34,569 bases of DNA. Origin: Campylobacterales bacterium. Lineage in GTDB: Bacteria; Campylobacterota; Campylobacteria; Campylobacterales; Sulfurovaceae. The notes below the pieces were generated by a model. The model had not been told where the DNA came from. It ran no database searches and was given only the letters and a program-made list of their open reading frames with translations. A program made the position numbers and the translations under genes. Of this stretch, positions 25,031 to 31,301 are shown in pieces (position 1 is the first letter of the stretch; the number at the start of each line of letters is the position of its first letter). The stretch covers positions 1 through 34,569 of the forward strand of contig JAJRRK010000009.1 of the NCBI GenBank assembly GCA_024279555.1, given 5' to 3'.

Positions 25031-27097
25031 CTATGAAAGGTACTTCTCTATCACTGATTTTAACTGTTCTATTGAAACAGGCTTGGTTAGGACTTCATCT
25101 GCACCGGCTTTTCGTATTCGGTCACCATGGTGCGAATCGCCGCTGAGACTAATGATTGCCAAAGATTCCATTTCATTGTTATTGATTTTCTCTTTGATGA
25201 TAGCGATAGCTTCGCTTCCGAGCATTTTAGGCATATTCTCATCAATAATCAGCATGTCGAATTTCTCTTCAGAAAGTTTCTCCAATGCAGTCTCCGCATC
25301 ATCGGCAAGCCTGACTTTCATATTCATTTTTGTGATAAGCGCATCCATGAATTTGAGGTTTATTCTGTTATCATCGACAACCAATATTTTTTTCTCTGAT
25401 AAATTTGTATCAAAGTCAATTGTTTTACCATGTTTTTCCGACTCTTGTGGATCCTTGTGTTGGAGGGCTTCATACAGCTTTTTGGTTAAGATAGGATAGG
25501 AGAGTTTGACAATGTTGCCTTTAAAGTAATTAAAAGTAATGCCAAAAGTGTCTTCTATCCAAATGACAGAACATCCTTTGTCAAGGAGTAGCTGCGTATA
25601 CTCGTAGTCATCTTCATCTATAAATAGTTTTTCTATGATGAAGATGTCACTCTTGTTGTAGTTACTGTTTTGGTAAATCTCTTTAAGGGTTCCGTTGGCG
25701 TCTTCAAGCACAACATTGAGTTGAAAACGTTTCAAATAGCGTCTTATTGTTTTTGCACGGATATCTTTTCTTTTTTTCCATCTGTAAAGACGTACGGATT
25801 TGTCAATCTTGGTCAACTCTATAAGCGGTTTTGTCTCTTCGGGTGTAATTGCAGGCAGATCAAAGGAGAATGTGCTTCCCTCTCCTTCTGTACTCTCCAC
25901 ACGAAGTCGACCGCCAAGAAGAGAGACGATCTGATAGGAAATGTTAAGTCCAAGTCCCGTTCCCCCAAAATCACGCTCTGTTGAACTGCTCTCTTGTCTG
26001 TAGGCGACAAAAATGTCTTCTAGCGCCTCTTTTTTAATCCCTATACCGGTATCGCTAACTGCAATGGTTATCACATTTTTGTTTGTGTCAAGTACAATAT
26101 CAATAAGAATACTGCCGTTTTCCGGTGTAAACTTAATAGCATTGCTCAAAAGATTTGAAAGCACCTGTTTGATGCGGTATTGATCGGATATGATTTTCTC
26201 CGGCAAGAGGGGATCAATATAGGTTGAGAGTAGAATATTTTTTTTGCGGGCAGTTTCATAAAATATTTTAACGGTATCGGCAAGTGCATCATGCAGATCG
26301 AAAGGTTTTTTCTCTATGGGAAGCTCACCGCTTTCAATCTTGGCGACATCGAGGGCATCATTAATAAGCCGTACCATGTGTTCACCGCTTTTGAGTGCGG
26401 AATGAAGGTACTCTTTTTTGGTTATATCCGTTTCATTAAGTGCTAAAAGATCCAAAAATCCGATAAGTGCATTCATCGGTGTTCTTACATCATGAATAAT
26501 ACTATGGAAATACTGTTTATCTCTGGCAATGGCTTTCTCTAGCGCATGAGTATTGTCCAGGCATTGTGCAAGTGTAAGTTTCTCTCTGTTCTCTACATTT
26601 GGGAAATAGGGCTTGACTCCCTCAAGAAACTTGATCAAATAGAGTATCTGTTTTTGGGAAAACTGTTTATCCGAGTTTTTCTCTATGGCCCCCCATACCA
26701 ATATATTGGGAAAAGTGGCACGTTTTTCCTTTTGTATCCAAACCGGTACAAGAACAAGCTCTTCAATCTCATGATCGGTAAGATTGTCCAATTTCTCTTT
26801 GTAGAGCAGACTATGCTCAAGATCTTTTAGCAGAAGTGGCTGTTTTTTGGTGATTACCTCTGAAAAAAGATGTTCTTCTTTCATTTGAGGCTCATAGATT
26901 CTGTCTAAAGAGAGTATATTATACCTCTTTGGCGGTTCCAATACAAGTATATAGAGATGATCCGCTTCTATGAGTATTTGAAGTTGCTCTTCTATGTAGG
27001 GGTATATGCTCTCGCTCTCTAATGATTTAACAGTTTCTACACTTTCAAGAACAAATTCTTTAAATTTTGCAATAGAAGGTTGTTTGGGAGAAGTCAT
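25031..27097 (-). CDS. Hybrid sensor histidine kinase/response regulator (GAF-like, HisKA, HATPase_c, degenerate receiver, receiver)
   Basis: HDVRTPMNALIGF (H-box), LLSNAIKFTPENG (N), VSDTGIGI (G1), GGTGLGLNIS (G2), KILVVDDNRINLKFMD...MLIIDENMP...LTKPVS receiver. Confidence 0.93.
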   Translation of the reverse strand: MTSPKQPSIAKFKEFVLESVETVKSLESESIYPYIEEQLQILIEADHLYILVLEPPKRYNILSLDRIYEPQMKEEHLFSEVITKKQPLLLKDLEHSLLYKEKLDNLTDHEIEELVLVPVWIQKEKRATFPNILVWGAIEKNSDKQFSQKQILYLIKFLEGVKPYFPNVENREKLTLAQCLDNTHALEKAIARDKQYFHSIIHDVRTPMNALIGFLDLLALNETDITKKEYLHSALKSGEHMVRLINDALDVAKIESGELPIEKKPFDLHDALADTVKIFYETARKKNILLSTYIDPLLPEKIISDQYRIKQVLSNLLSNAIKFTPENGSILIDIVLDTNKNVITIAVSDTGIGIKKEALEDIFVAYRQESSSTERDFGGTGLGLNISYQIVSLLGGRLRVESTEGEGSTFSFDLPAITPEETKPLIELTKIDKSVRLYRWKKRKDIRAKTIRRYLKRFQLNVVLEDANGTLKEIYQNSNYNKSDIFIIEKLFIDEDDYEYTQLLLDKGCSVIWIEDTFGITFNYFKGNIVKLSYPILTKKLYEALQHKDPQESEKHGKTIDFDTNLSEKKILVVDDNRINLKFMDALITKMNMKVRLADDAETALEKLSEEKFDMLIIDENMPKMLGSEAIAIIKEKINNNEMESLAIISLSGDSHHGDRIRKAGADEVLTKPVSIEQLKSVIEKYLS

Positions 27098-28776
27098 ACT
27101 TCATCTGCCTCCATTTGTATAAATTCTTCAAGTGCATCAAGACAAGGCTGATTTTGATCTATCTGCATATCTACCACACTGTAGTCATAAAAGTTTATGG
27201 AATCATCTTCTTGGCATCCATTCATCACTGTCAGGATGCAATATGGTTTTTGTTGTAGTTTATTTTTGAAAAGTTCATCTGAAAACCGGGATTGAAATAC
27301 AATGAGATGCGTAATATCATCTTTAAAAAGTTCCAATTTCTCAGCACCACTAAGTTGCGATTTGGATATTCCCATCGATACTAAATATCTGGCAATATTG
27401 TTAGCCGCATCCATATCTTCTTTTTTGTTTAGGAGCAGTCCTACTTTTATAGTCTTGTCCGATATTGAAGTCACAATAGCTTCATTACTCTCTTTTTCAT
27501 ATGGAATAGAAAGAGAGAAAAGAGCCTGTTTCTTATCTGTATCTACAGAAGAGGCAATACTTCCTCCTGTCTGTATAAACTTGCTGTAGGAGAGATATAG
27601 CGCATCATCAGGTTTCTCTTTTGTATCGCGAAAGAGTGTACGGTGCAGATCCATATGCTCCTCTTTAATAGCATATAAAATACGAAAAATAAGAGAAGAA
27701 GGTTTTTTGGGATGAAGTGTTAGACGTATTTCAAAAGGCAAAGAATTATGCGTATATTGTAATGCAAATTGAAGAAGTTCCGAAATGAAAATATATGTAT
27801 TTTGTCTATCGATGCTTATTTTGGAAGGCAATCTCGCATCTAGGAAAAAAAGCATGGAGATGTTTTGGTAACAGACAAGTTCTTTCATGGTAGTGGCAAA
27901 ATGCTCGAAAAACGGCTTTGTTTCTACACTTGCTTTACTTTTGAAAAGTTCATCGATAACATTATTCGATGTGGTAAATTGGAAAGTATGCAAAAGATGC
28001 TCACTGAGTTGCCTCATAAGCTCTTCTATATGCAAAATATGTGGCATATTCTTATCGTTATGGTGTGTCTGCTGCTTGATTTGCGCAATAATATTTTTGG
28101 TGTTCTCAAGAGTAGTATTGGTCCCCATGAGAATATTGATGAGTGTTGCAATGATCTCTTGAGGTGTCTTGAAAATTTGCTCATTTTCCTTAATGCGATT
28201 AATGACAGCATTTTTTTGCATCTCTGTCTGTTCCGCAAGTTTTTTGGCGGCAAGAAGGAGTATTGTTTCTATAGATTGCAAAAAAGCCATATCGTCCTTT
28301 TTGAAAGAACGGTGTATCTTAATACTTTTGACTCGTGTTGTCGCGCCTATCATCTGGCTTCCGACAATCAAGGGTTCAATAACTTCTTCCTTTTCGTTTT
28401 CATATACTTTCCAAAGTGAGAGCACAATATCGTAACGTTCATCTTTGTTAAGAATGGGAAAAAGCAGGAGTGAACTTACATCTTTTTCATGATTACAGTC
28501 TATACTCTGGTTGCATAAAGTTTGGGACATCGGTTCATCGATAATCTCTTGCTGTTTTGTTTCAAATGTTTTTTGAACAAAGCTCTCTGGAAGCATAAGC
28601 ATATCTTGCCACTGTAAATCTTCAGGCATCAAAATATACTTTTCTGATTTCTTGTCATGCACAATCATTGACATACCGTCAACATTGCACTCTGTCTGGA
28701 CAATCCCTTTTATAAAGTGAAAAACCTCTTCGTAATCAGTCAGGTTTTCGAGTTCGGTTAAAAATTGTTCTTGCAT
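27094..28776 (-). CDS. GAF-like plus degenerate histidine-kinase-like protein (predicted pseudokinase)
   Basis: VETKPFFEHFATTMKEL..NISMLFFLDARLPSKISIDRQNTYIFISELLQFALQYT aligns by eye with the neighbouring HK segment IEKKPFDLHDALADTV..NILLSTYIDPLLPEKIISDQYRIKQVLSNLLSNAIKFT but lacks the H-box His, N-box Asn and DxGxG. Confidence 0.7.
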   Translation of the reverse strand: MQEQFLTELENLTDYEEVFHFIKGIVQTECNVDGMSMIVHDKKSEKYILMPEDLQWQDMLMLPESFVQKTFETKQQEIIDEPMSQTLCNQSIDCNHEKDVSSLLLFPILNKDERYDIVLSLWKVYENEKEEVIEPLIVGSQMIGATTRVKSIKIHRSFKKDDMAFLQSIETILLLAAKKLAEQTEMQKNAVINRIKENEQIFKTPQEIIATLINILMGTNTTLENTKNIIAQIKQQTHHNDKNMPHILHIEELMRQLSEHLLHTFQFTTSNNVIDELFKSKASVETKPFFEHFATTMKELVCYQNISMLFFLDARLPSKISIDRQNTYIFISELLQFALQYTHNSLPFEIRLTLHPKKPSSLIFRILYAIKEEHMDLHRTLFRDTKEKPDDALYLSYSKFIQTGGSIASSVDTDKKQALFSLSIPYEKESNEAIVTSISDKTIKVGLLLNKKEDMDAANNIARYLVSMGISKSQLSGAEKLELFKDDITHLIVFQSRFSDELFKNKLQQKPYCILTVMNGCQEDDSINFYDYSVVDMQIDQNQPCLDALEEFIQMEADEV

Positions 28777-28787
28777 GCAATATCTCC

Positions 28788-29423
28788 TTAGTTGTTACCG
28801 TTGAATAGCTTTTTCATCTTATTGACAGCTGCTTCTAGTATGCTGCTTTTTTCTTCTGTACCCATATTCTCTTCTGTCGTTATTGCCTCTTTGTTTGGGA
28901 GGGATTGTTTGGTTTCACTTGTTCCGTAGTGTACTTCAAGGAAATGTGGAAGTACTTGATCCAAAGTGGCAATATCTTCTTGGGAAAATTGTTCCGGGGG
29001 GACATCGACTGTGGCTTGTTTCACTGTAACTCCAATGGTTCTATCGCCTGATTTCAGAGGGACTATCTGCTCTTGCGTTGTTGTGTATCCCTCTTTCCCA
29101 ATGCCGATGATCATTCCCACATGGCTATCATTGTATTTGACCGGATAGTACAAAGCAGCATATATGTTTTCACAGTAACTGTCATATTTAGGATTGAAGC
29201 GCTCATCCTTCTTGATATTGTTGATGTAAAATGGGGTACGGTTTTGCCATGCATAACGGGCTAGTCCTCTTTTGGGAATTTGCTGTTTTATGAAAAATAG
29301 TGTTTTTTCTGCATTAATCAATCGTTTCAGTACATACAATATATAGTCTATACGCTCGTTTTCTTTTTGAATGGTCTGTACGGTATTGAGAGACTTGATT
29401 AAAATACTTTCATTTTTGTTCAT
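28788..29423 (-). CDS. GAF-like domain protein
   Basis: VLKRLINAEKTLFFI...GLARYAWQNRTPFYINNIKKDERFNPKYDSYCENIYAALYYPVKYNDSHVGMIIG, GAF-like pattern. Confidence 0.65.
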   Translation of the reverse strand: MNKNESILIKSLNTVQTIQKENERIDYILYVLKRLINAEKTLFFIKQQIPKRGLARYAWQNRTPFYINNIKKDERFNPKYDSYCENIYAALYYPVKYNDSHVGMIIGIGKEGYTTTQEQIVPLKSGDRTIGVTVKQATVDVPPEQFSQEDIATLDQVLPHFLEVHYGTSETKQSLPNKEAITTEENMGTEEKSSILEAAVNKMKKLFNGNN

Positions 29424-29535
29424 CAGAACTCTTTTAGATTAATTAATATTATAATATTTCAACGCTATATCTATTATAGTACTCAAGTATTATAAATGAC
29501 AACGGCACATGATGCGTACCGTTGTACGGAGGCGA

Positions 29536-29745
29536 TTATGCCTCTTGCTTGTGCATATTGCGGATCAATCCGTTGATGAACCCAAGCATTTGTGGTGTGA
29601 CCCCTTTAAGATCTTCGTTGGTTACATCCATTTGTGCCAAAATACCCATAACATCTTTATAGAACTCTGCAGGTTCGATCTCTTTTTTCTTCATCTGTTC
29701 GATGAAGCCGTCTAATTGCTCTTGAATCATTGCGATATCCCTCAT
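29536..29745 (-). CDS. Small 69-aa protein, cassette B (paralogue of 30468-30674)
   Basis: MRDIAMIQEQLDGFIEQMKKKEIEPAEFYKDVMGILAQMDVTNEDLKGVTPQMLGFINGLIRNMHKQEA; RBS-like AGGAG; conserved between copies. Confidence 0.8.
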   Translation of the reverse strand: MRDIAMIQEQLDGFIEQMKKKEIEPAEFYKDVMGILAQMDVTNEDLKGVTPQMLGFINGLIRNMHKQEA

Positions 29746-29781
29746 ACCATACTCCTATTTTCATATAAATGTTTTCAACCA

Positions 29782-29828
29782 AAAGACCATACACGGTCTT
29801 TCACCTGAAGATGAACTGCGCATCTTCA
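29782..29828 (-). other. Conserved double-hairpin spacer, cassette B
   Basis: AAAGACC-ATACAC-GGTCTTT (29782-29801) and TGAAGATG-AACTGCG-CATCTTCA (29806-29828), between roadblock stop and small-protein start. Confidence 0.8.
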
Positions 29829-29859
29829 TATAAACCGACAGTTTTGTGTTGCAATGCTC

Positions 29860-30237
29860 TTAGAGATCCTGCAGCTTTTTGACAAATGTTTTCAGTGCGA
29901 CAAGCAGACCGCCCATTTTGTAGTTTGCCGGTGCCAGTACACCCAGTGCAATATCTTCACCAAGATCTTTAATGGCAATAAAACCGCCTTCAGCAGTAAT
30001 GATCATGTTGTCGAACTTCTTCTTCTCTGTATTCTCAAGGATACCCGCAGTAACAGACAAAAGTGATGCCGCATCTGATGCAATGAGGTCACTGTCGAGC
30101 GTTTTATCGGTAATGGCGCTTGCCAGCTCCAAACCTTCCGCTGTTGCAAGAACCGCGCCTTGAAGTCCTGCCGCATTGACAAACTCTTTTAAAAGTCCGT
30201 CTCCCTCTGTTCCCAATTTCAATGAATCTATAGCCAT
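29860..30237 (-). CDS. Roadblock/LC7-domain protein, cassette B
   Basis: LLKEFVNAAGLQGAVLATAEGLELASAI...LSVTAGILENTEKKKFDNMIITAEGGFIAIKDLGEDIALGVLAP. Confidence 0.85.
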   Translation of the reverse strand: MAIDSLKLGTEGDGLLKEFVNAAGLQGAVLATAEGLELASAITDKTLDSDLIASDAASLLSVTAGILENTEKKKFDNMIITAEGGFIAIKDLGEDIALGVLAPANYKMGGLLVALKTFVKKLQDL

Positions 30238-30343
30238 GTTGTAGCTCCTTAGTATAATTTTAAGTTCACTCTCCTAATAGAGCAGATCAAACTCAACTGC
30301 TATGATAACTGAAAAATATTTAAAAATCATCGTATGTTATATT

Positions 30344-30365
30344 TTTATTACATTTTTGTAATAAA
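30344..30365. promoter_or_regulatory. AT-rich inverted repeat upstream of roadblock cassette B
   Basis: TTTATTAC-ATTTTT-GTAATAAA, perfect 8-bp arms. Confidence 0.4.
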
Positions 30366-30426
30366 TTACAAAATCAAAAAAGTGGAGTATATCAGAAAGT
30401 TGTATTAGACAAGTAGTAGTAAAATG

Positions 30427-30454
30427 ACCCATGCCAAGCAGTCTTGGTATGGGT
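30427..30454 (-). terminator. Candidate terminator after cassette A
   Basis: ACCCATGCCAAG-CAGT-CTTGGTATGGGT, 12-bp stem with one G-T pair, just downstream of the small-protein stop. Confidence 0.6.
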
Positions 30455-30467
30455 ATATATTGTGTTT

Positions 30468-30674
30468 TTAAATCTGTTTTTTCATATTGCGGATCAAACC
30501 ATTGAGAAAGCCAAGCAGTTGCGGCATGACCCCCTGAAGATCTTCATTGGTCACATCCATTTGTGCCAAAATGCCCATGACACCTTTGTAAAACTCTGTT
30601 GGCTCTATCTCTCTTTTTTTCATCTGATCGATAAATCCGTCCAATTGTTCTTGGATTTGTGCAATGTCTCTCAT
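30468..30674 (-). CDS. Small 68-aa protein, cassette A (paralogue of 29536-29745)
   Basis: MRDIAQIQEQLDGFIDQMKKREIEPTEFYKGVMGILAQMDVTNEDLQGVMPQLLGFLNGLIRNMKKQI. Confidence 0.8.
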   Translation of the reverse strand: MRDIAQIQEQLDGFIDQMKKREIEPTEFYKGVMGILAQMDVTNEDLQGVMPQLLGFLNGLIRNMKKQI

Positions 30675-30710
30675 GTAATGTTCCTTTTTTTATATAAATG
30701 TTTTCAACCA

Positions 30711-30757
30711 AAAGACCATACACGGTCTTTCACCTGAAGATGAACTGCGCATCTTCA
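30711..30757 (-). other. Conserved double-hairpin spacer, cassette A
   Basis: Same two hairpins (30711-30730 and 30735-30757); identical to cassette B. Confidence 0.8.
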
Positions 30758-30788
30758 TATAAACCGACAGTTTTGCGTTGCAATGCTC

Positions 30789-31166
30789 TTAGAGATCCTG
30801 AAGCTTTTTGACAAATGTTTTCAGTGCAACAAGCAGACCACCCATTTTGTAGTTTGCCGGCGCCAAAACACCCAGTGCAATGTCTTCACCAAGATCTTTA
30901 ATGGCAATAAAACCGCCTTCAGCAGTAATGATCATGTTATCGAACTTGTTCTTCTCTGTATTCTCAAGGATACCCGCAGTAACGGACAAAAGCGATGCCG
31001 CATCTGATGCAATGAGGTCACTGTCGAGCGTTTTATCGGTAATGGCGCTTGCCAGCTCCAAACCTTCCGCTGTTGCAAGAACCGCACCTTGAAGTCCTGC
31101 TGAGTTGACAAACTCTTTTAAAAGTCCGTCTCCCTCTGTTCCCAATTTCAATGAATCTATAGCCAT
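30789..31166 (-). CDS. Roadblock/LC7-domain protein, cassette A
   Basis: Differs from cassette B at only two of 125 residues (A/S and K/N); start reassigned from 31223 to MAIDSLKLG at 31166. Confidence 0.85.
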   Translation of the reverse strand: MAIDSLKLGTEGDGLLKEFVNSAGLQGAVLATAEGLELASAITDKTLDSDLIASDAASLLSVTAGILENTEKNKFDNMIITAEGGFIAIKDLGEDIALGVLAPANYKMGGLLVALKTFVKKLQDL

Positions 31167-31301
31167 GTTGTAGCTCCTTATGAAAAATTGCAGCTTCACT
31201 AAACTTAAAGAAAGTAAAACCAAAAATAATTATAAAAATAAGTAGATTTAAGTTTGCTAAAAAAATAAAGTGTTTTTTTATGGTTTTTCATGTAGTGTTT
31301 G

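Follow-up and report, generated by a model that had tools for sequence, protein, structure and literature searches.

A tandem pair of roadblock and small-protein genes

The window, a 34,569-nt stretch from a 1.82-Mb draft genome of a Campylobacterales bacterium, carries two similar gene units in tandem on the minus strand, 929 bp apart, each made up of a roadblock/LC7 gene (Pfam PF03259), a spacer, and a small-protein gene in that order (Table 1). The spacers are read from 29859 to 29746 and from 30788 to 30675. Named relatives of the window roadblock protein come from metagenome assemblies of Sulfurovum, Nitratifractor, and Nautiliaceae. The small protein had no match by Pfam, NCBIfam, or PDB sequence or fold; AlphaFold2 predicts three helices with a mean pLDDT of 89.5. 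Its relatives outside the window are 45 to 68% identical to copy A, and the residues FYK and G-P-L-F-N are invariant.

Table 1. Features of the two units and their spacers in the window.
Feature	Position	Strand	Remarks
Roadblock/LC7 protein A	29860..30237	-	125 aa
Roadblock/LC7 protein B	30789..31166	-	125 aa; 98% identical to A
Spacer A	29746..29859	-	114 nt; roadblock A stop to small-protein A start
Spacer B	30675..30788	-	114 nt; second copy
Small protein A	29536..29745	-	69 aa; three predicted helices; no known family
Small protein B	30468..30674	-	68 aa
Main hairpin A	29774..29809	-	UUCAGGUGAAAGACC-GUGUAU-GGUCUUUUGGUUGAA; 14 bp; -15.1 kcal/mol
Main hairpin B	30703..30738	-	core 30711-30730
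Stem TGAAGATG/CATCTTCA, copy A	29806..29828	-	8 bp; -7.1 kcal/mol
Stem TGAAGATG/CATCTTCA, copy B	30735..30757	-	
Homogenised block, copy A	29763..30251	-	ribosome-binding site, roadblock gene, and spacer; sharp identity drop on both sides
Homogenised block, partner copy B	30692-31180	-	
Hairpin after small-protein gene A	29499..29525	-	ACAACGG...CCGTTGT; -14.1 kcal/mol
Hairpin after small-protein gene B	30427..30454	-	ACCCATACCAAG...CTTGGCATGGGT; -14.4 kcal/mol

One hairpin dominates the predicted spacer fold

An earlier note on this DNA, made from the letters alone, had drawn attention to a spacer that is almost identical in both copies, holds two perfect stem-loops, and is explained by no reading frame. 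Both stems are indeed present, the 8-bp TGAAGATG/CATCTTCA stem and a 7-bp AAAGACC/GGTCTTT core (29782-29801 in copy A) that extends to the 14-bp main hairpin. The point about reading frames is nearly right, the exception being a 22-codon ORF that crosses the spacer in both copies and has no recognisable ribosome-binding site. The TGAAGATG/CATCTTCA stem and the base of the main hairpin have 4 nt in common. The predicted pairing probability of this stem is only 0.03 to 0.21, compared to >0.93 for nearly all pairs of the main hairpin; forcing it to form costs 2.9 kcal/mol (-21.6 vs -24.5). The 14-bp AAAGACC hairpin is predicted to dominate the spacer fold, with the TGAAGATG stem mostly unformed.

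Two perfect stems of at least 7 bp within 96 nt occurred in 0.1% of dinucleotide shuffles (about 1 in 1000), and in each copy the best spacer hairpin exceeded the strength of those in shuffled sequence (z -2.6 and -3.7). The fold of the whole spacer showed no extra stability over shuffles (z -0.9 and -1.2), and when 114-nt stretches of the window were matched for GC, about 5% contained an equally strong hairpin. The hairpin is stable and lies between the stop of the upstream cistron and the start of the downstream one, as a stabilising or processing hairpin would. At 14 bp and -15.1 kcal/mol, it also provides the G+C-containing stem-loop of an intrinsic terminator; a U-tract directly 3' of the full window stem is absent, the tail being AACAUUUAUA, and a consensus scan did not call the hairpin a terminator. 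We considered and rejected a dispersed repeat. The first stem has weak BLAST matches elsewhere in the genome; three of them were examined in context and all fall within what looks like coding sequence for proteins, clearly pdxJ-like and ftsH-like in two cases, so we took the matches as chance.

The roadblock gene and spacer form one near-identical block

The earlier coordinates and near-identity of the spacer were right for its conserved part, which covers 96 of the 114 nt (29764-29859). Here, 95 of 96 positions are identical between the copies, and the single mismatch (A/G at 29847) falls outside both stems, while the 18 nt adjoining the small-gene start are identical at 11 and differ at 7. 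The roadblock genes match at 363 of 378 nt and the small-protein genes at 164 of 210 nt; the flanks of the two units are unrelated (49% and 33% identity). The near-identical block extends from the roadblock ribosome-binding site (30251) to 29763, just before the ribosome-binding site of the small gene.

The two genes of the unit also differ sharply in silent divergence. Among the 15 differences between the roadblock copies, 13 are at third positions, with a dS of 0.11 to 0.16, whereas the small-gene dS ranges from 0.9 (YN00) to 3.3 (NG86, near saturation). Differences fall on 13/126 third positions (10%) in the roadblock gene vs 31/70 (44%) in the small gene (p=1e-7). Such an abrupt drop in silent-site divergence within one tandem pair fits a gene-conversion block. 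Since two ages are impossible for a single tandem duplication, recent gene conversion (or re-duplication) of the roadblock gene plus spacer is the simplest reading of these sequences, and with a roadblock dS this low next to a small-gene dS of at least 0.9, it would explain most of the spacer near-identity. A wrongly merged repeat in the draft assembly is an unlikely source, since both copies lie in one contig and the differences are scattered. As in concerted evolution by gene conversion generally, a near-identical block sits inside an otherwise diverged tandem pair; what sets the window block apart is that it takes in a non-coding hairpin spacer and ends where the partner gene begins to diverge.

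It had also been claimed that conservation is higher in the spacer than in the adjoining coding gene. This holds against the small-protein gene (95/96 vs 164/210, p=2e-7) and against roadblock third positions (1/96 vs 13/126 differences, p=0.004), by which measure the spacer is somewhat too conserved, but not against the whole roadblock gene at the nucleotide level (p=0.21). The copy differences are patchy, and a perfect run of 92 nt occurs inside the roadblock gene as well. Some leftover constraint on the spacer beyond conversion is possible, though not proven. Near-identity of a spacer in tandem copies should be taken as weak functional evidence when the adjoining gene has also been homogenised.

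Hairpins at the same place in related genomes

A profile of the small protein located the unit in 14 of 175 family genomes, and a roadblock protein search located it in 10 of 78 genus genomes, where every unit-bearing genome except that of the window has a single roadblock copy. The window spacer sequence itself was absent from all other genus genomes (78 searched). Besides the two in the window, 17 distinct spacers were readable, and those of Sulfurovaceae-type genomes are 73 to 119 nt long. When spacers of 40 nt or more were scored for a hairpin plus T-tail, 8 of 16 distinct spacers, window copy A included, scored beyond shuffles at p<=0.05 (combined p about 2.5e-7, with relatedness ignored). 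The T content in the 12 nt after the hairpin was 57%, compared to 31% elsewhere in the same spacers, with some hairpin ends set by eye, and a U-rich stretch follows the hairpin in several relatives (e.g., L012, L021, L022, and L011). These sequence comparisons indicate that the relatives recurrently have a hairpin at this place, in the gap that separates the roadblock gene from the small-protein gene.

Four of these spacers (L010, L018, L019, and L028) have in common GGUG together with a stem of 5 bp capped by a GNAA loop. Pairing holds in all 20 cells of the stem, and two of its five pairs carry two-sided changes (U-A/A-U and C-G/U-A); sliding the pairing by 1 to 3 nt lowers it from 100% to 35 to 55%. 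The covariation score was equalled by 59 of 500 column shuffles, there being only four sequences. We regard these data as evidence for a real hairpin in those four species. A covariance model of this hairpin found its own spacers strongly, gave weak matches elsewhere in the genus (E 0.01-0.1), and had no match in the window spacer. An alignment of the window hairpin with those of relatives was set aside as not convincing, since only AGGTG before the stem is held in common.

The hairpin is not found everywhere. We detected no significant hairpin in the spacers of L037, L055, and L032; the Nautiliaceae spacers of L035 and L036 are only 9 and 16 nt long and have no hairpin, and the 58-nt spacer of L065, a more distant Nautiliaceae genome, has no significant one. 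Since these three Nautiliaceae genomes have either almost no spacer or, in L065, no significant hairpin, the gene pair does not require one. The earlier note's reading of the spacer as an RNA element gains from the recurrent hairpin and from the covariation in the four-species family, but its conservation argument was mostly wrong, because the spacer occurs in no other genus genome and its identity is part of a homogenisation that extends over the roadblock gene as well.

A second hairpin lies 3' of the small gene, where it is significant (z below -2.9) in 11 of 14 Sulfurovaceae-type relatives and in both window copies; in these relatives it has -10.5 to -22.8 kcal/mol and usually no U-tract. 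The ends of the first two cistrons are marked by hairpins. Across the window copies and L010-L055, this second hairpin exceeds that of the spacer in both strength and constancy, with z down to -10.

Possible roles of the spacer hairpin

An RNA role for the spacer hairpin is plausible since a hairpin recurs in the operons of relatives and one four-species family covaries; it could be a stabiliser, a processing site, or a leaky terminator. The striking identity of the two spacers is best explained by gene conversion as its main cause, acting on a hairpin element that is real but ordinary. In the account that we put forward, to which we give about an even chance, the hairpin is of the ordinary intercistronic kind, acts as a 3'-end stabiliser or a leaky terminator, favours roadblock mRNA, and was homogenised by gene conversion. 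The spacer would form the 3' UTR of the roadblock cistron within what is presumably a single roadblock-small protein message, where the 14-bp hairpin probably blocks 3'-to-5' RNA decay of the roadblock message and may also end part of the transcription ahead of the small gene. The outcome would be more roadblock than small-protein mRNA, with a likely effect on the protein ratio. The hairpin 3' of the small gene would act likewise ahead of the downstream genes. Most relatives have a histidine kinase among these, as does the window further down. Termination would have a share in species whose hairpin precedes a U-tract, and levels would fall from roadblock to small to signalling proteins. The window species would have duplicated the unit in tandem, and recent gene conversion over the roadblock gene and spacer would have made the spacers near-identical.

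Known systems offer partial parallels. For the Clostridium cellulolyticum cip-cel operon, stem-loops between genes are described as directing the selective processing and stabilisation of RNA (PMC4423207). As in the window, the upstream cistron of a message with several genes has a stem-loop at its 3' end; on the other hand, the phylum and the RNases differ. In Escherichia coli, protective RNA structures lead to differential decay of operon segments and shape stoichiometry (PMC5927463). The window structure could likewise protect the upstream segment of a polycistron, but the E. coli structures covered there are mostly inside coding regions, while the window hairpin is in a spacer. Intrinsic (Rho-independent) terminators within operons resemble these spacers in their short hairpin and, in several relatives, the U-rich sequence downstream, and differ in that the window copy has no U-tract.

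It is also conceivable, though rather unlikely, that conversion is the whole story and that the hairpins have no role, the roadblock and spacer block having been copied recently between the units. The single sharp-edged block with its equally long perfect run inside the roadblock gene, a spacer sequence shared by no relative, and the frequency of comparably strong hairpins in GC-matched stretches all fit this reading; the excess of spacer conservation over roadblock third positions and the hairpins of relatives at this place, which are beyond chance, speak against it. Less likely still is a hairpin whose main work is leaky intrinsic termination, by which it would attenuate read-through into the small gene. 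The U-rich sequence often found 3' of the relatives' hairpin would suit such a role, as would the GACC/GGUC core of the window hairpin, which runs into UUUUGGUU, but the terminator scan and the sequence that follows the full stem do not.

More elaborate regulation seems improbable. We give little credence to a lineage-specific regulatory RNA whose exclusive stems set the roadblock:small protein ratio on a signal, with selection rather than conversion keeping the copies identical, and slightly less to a switch in which the TGAAGATG/CATCTTCA stem and the 14-bp hairpin are mutually exclusive, possibly with translation of the 22-codon ORF. The shared nucleotides, the energy cost of forcing the first stem, and an ORF that spans both stems are what one might expect of a switch, but the main hairpin is predicted to form almost throughout, the ORF has no evident ribosome-binding site, and inspection of the relatives' spacers identified no alternative stem. 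A small RNA made from the spacer, as the earlier note had suggested, is scarcely credible: apart from two stems within 96 nt, nothing supports it, with no Rfam match at gathering score, no promoter-like site found in the spacer, and no conservation outside the window genome.

If the ordinary intercistronic hairpins do set stoichiometry, Sulfurovum-type bacteria would have a kinase-linked operon in which roadblock is in excess over its partner, a small helical protein not described before.

Neighbours of the unit

In relatives, the unit is followed by a protein of ~110 aa, a protein of ~220 aa, and a hybrid histidine kinase; in the window, the second roadblock-small unit comes next, together with a protein that weakly resembles GAF, another of 560 aa, and a related kinase. 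The ~110-aa protein takes the place of the second unit in L027:4796-5125, L033:4851-5213, L037:4690-5013, L041:4785-5111, and L032:4877-5206. It looks roadblock-like by eye, but profile comparison was not significant and we did not retain it as a second roadblock. Without a dedicated search, no small GTPase gene was noticed adjoining the window unit. From 25031 to 29423, the window has a co-directional run of genes in which roadblock genes and a hybrid histidine kinase occur together, an arrangement reminiscent of how kinase and roadblock are paired in actinobacterial conservons (PMC13343842). In a Nautiliaceae genome (L036:4395-4808), two small-protein genes lie in tandem 3' of one roadblock gene.
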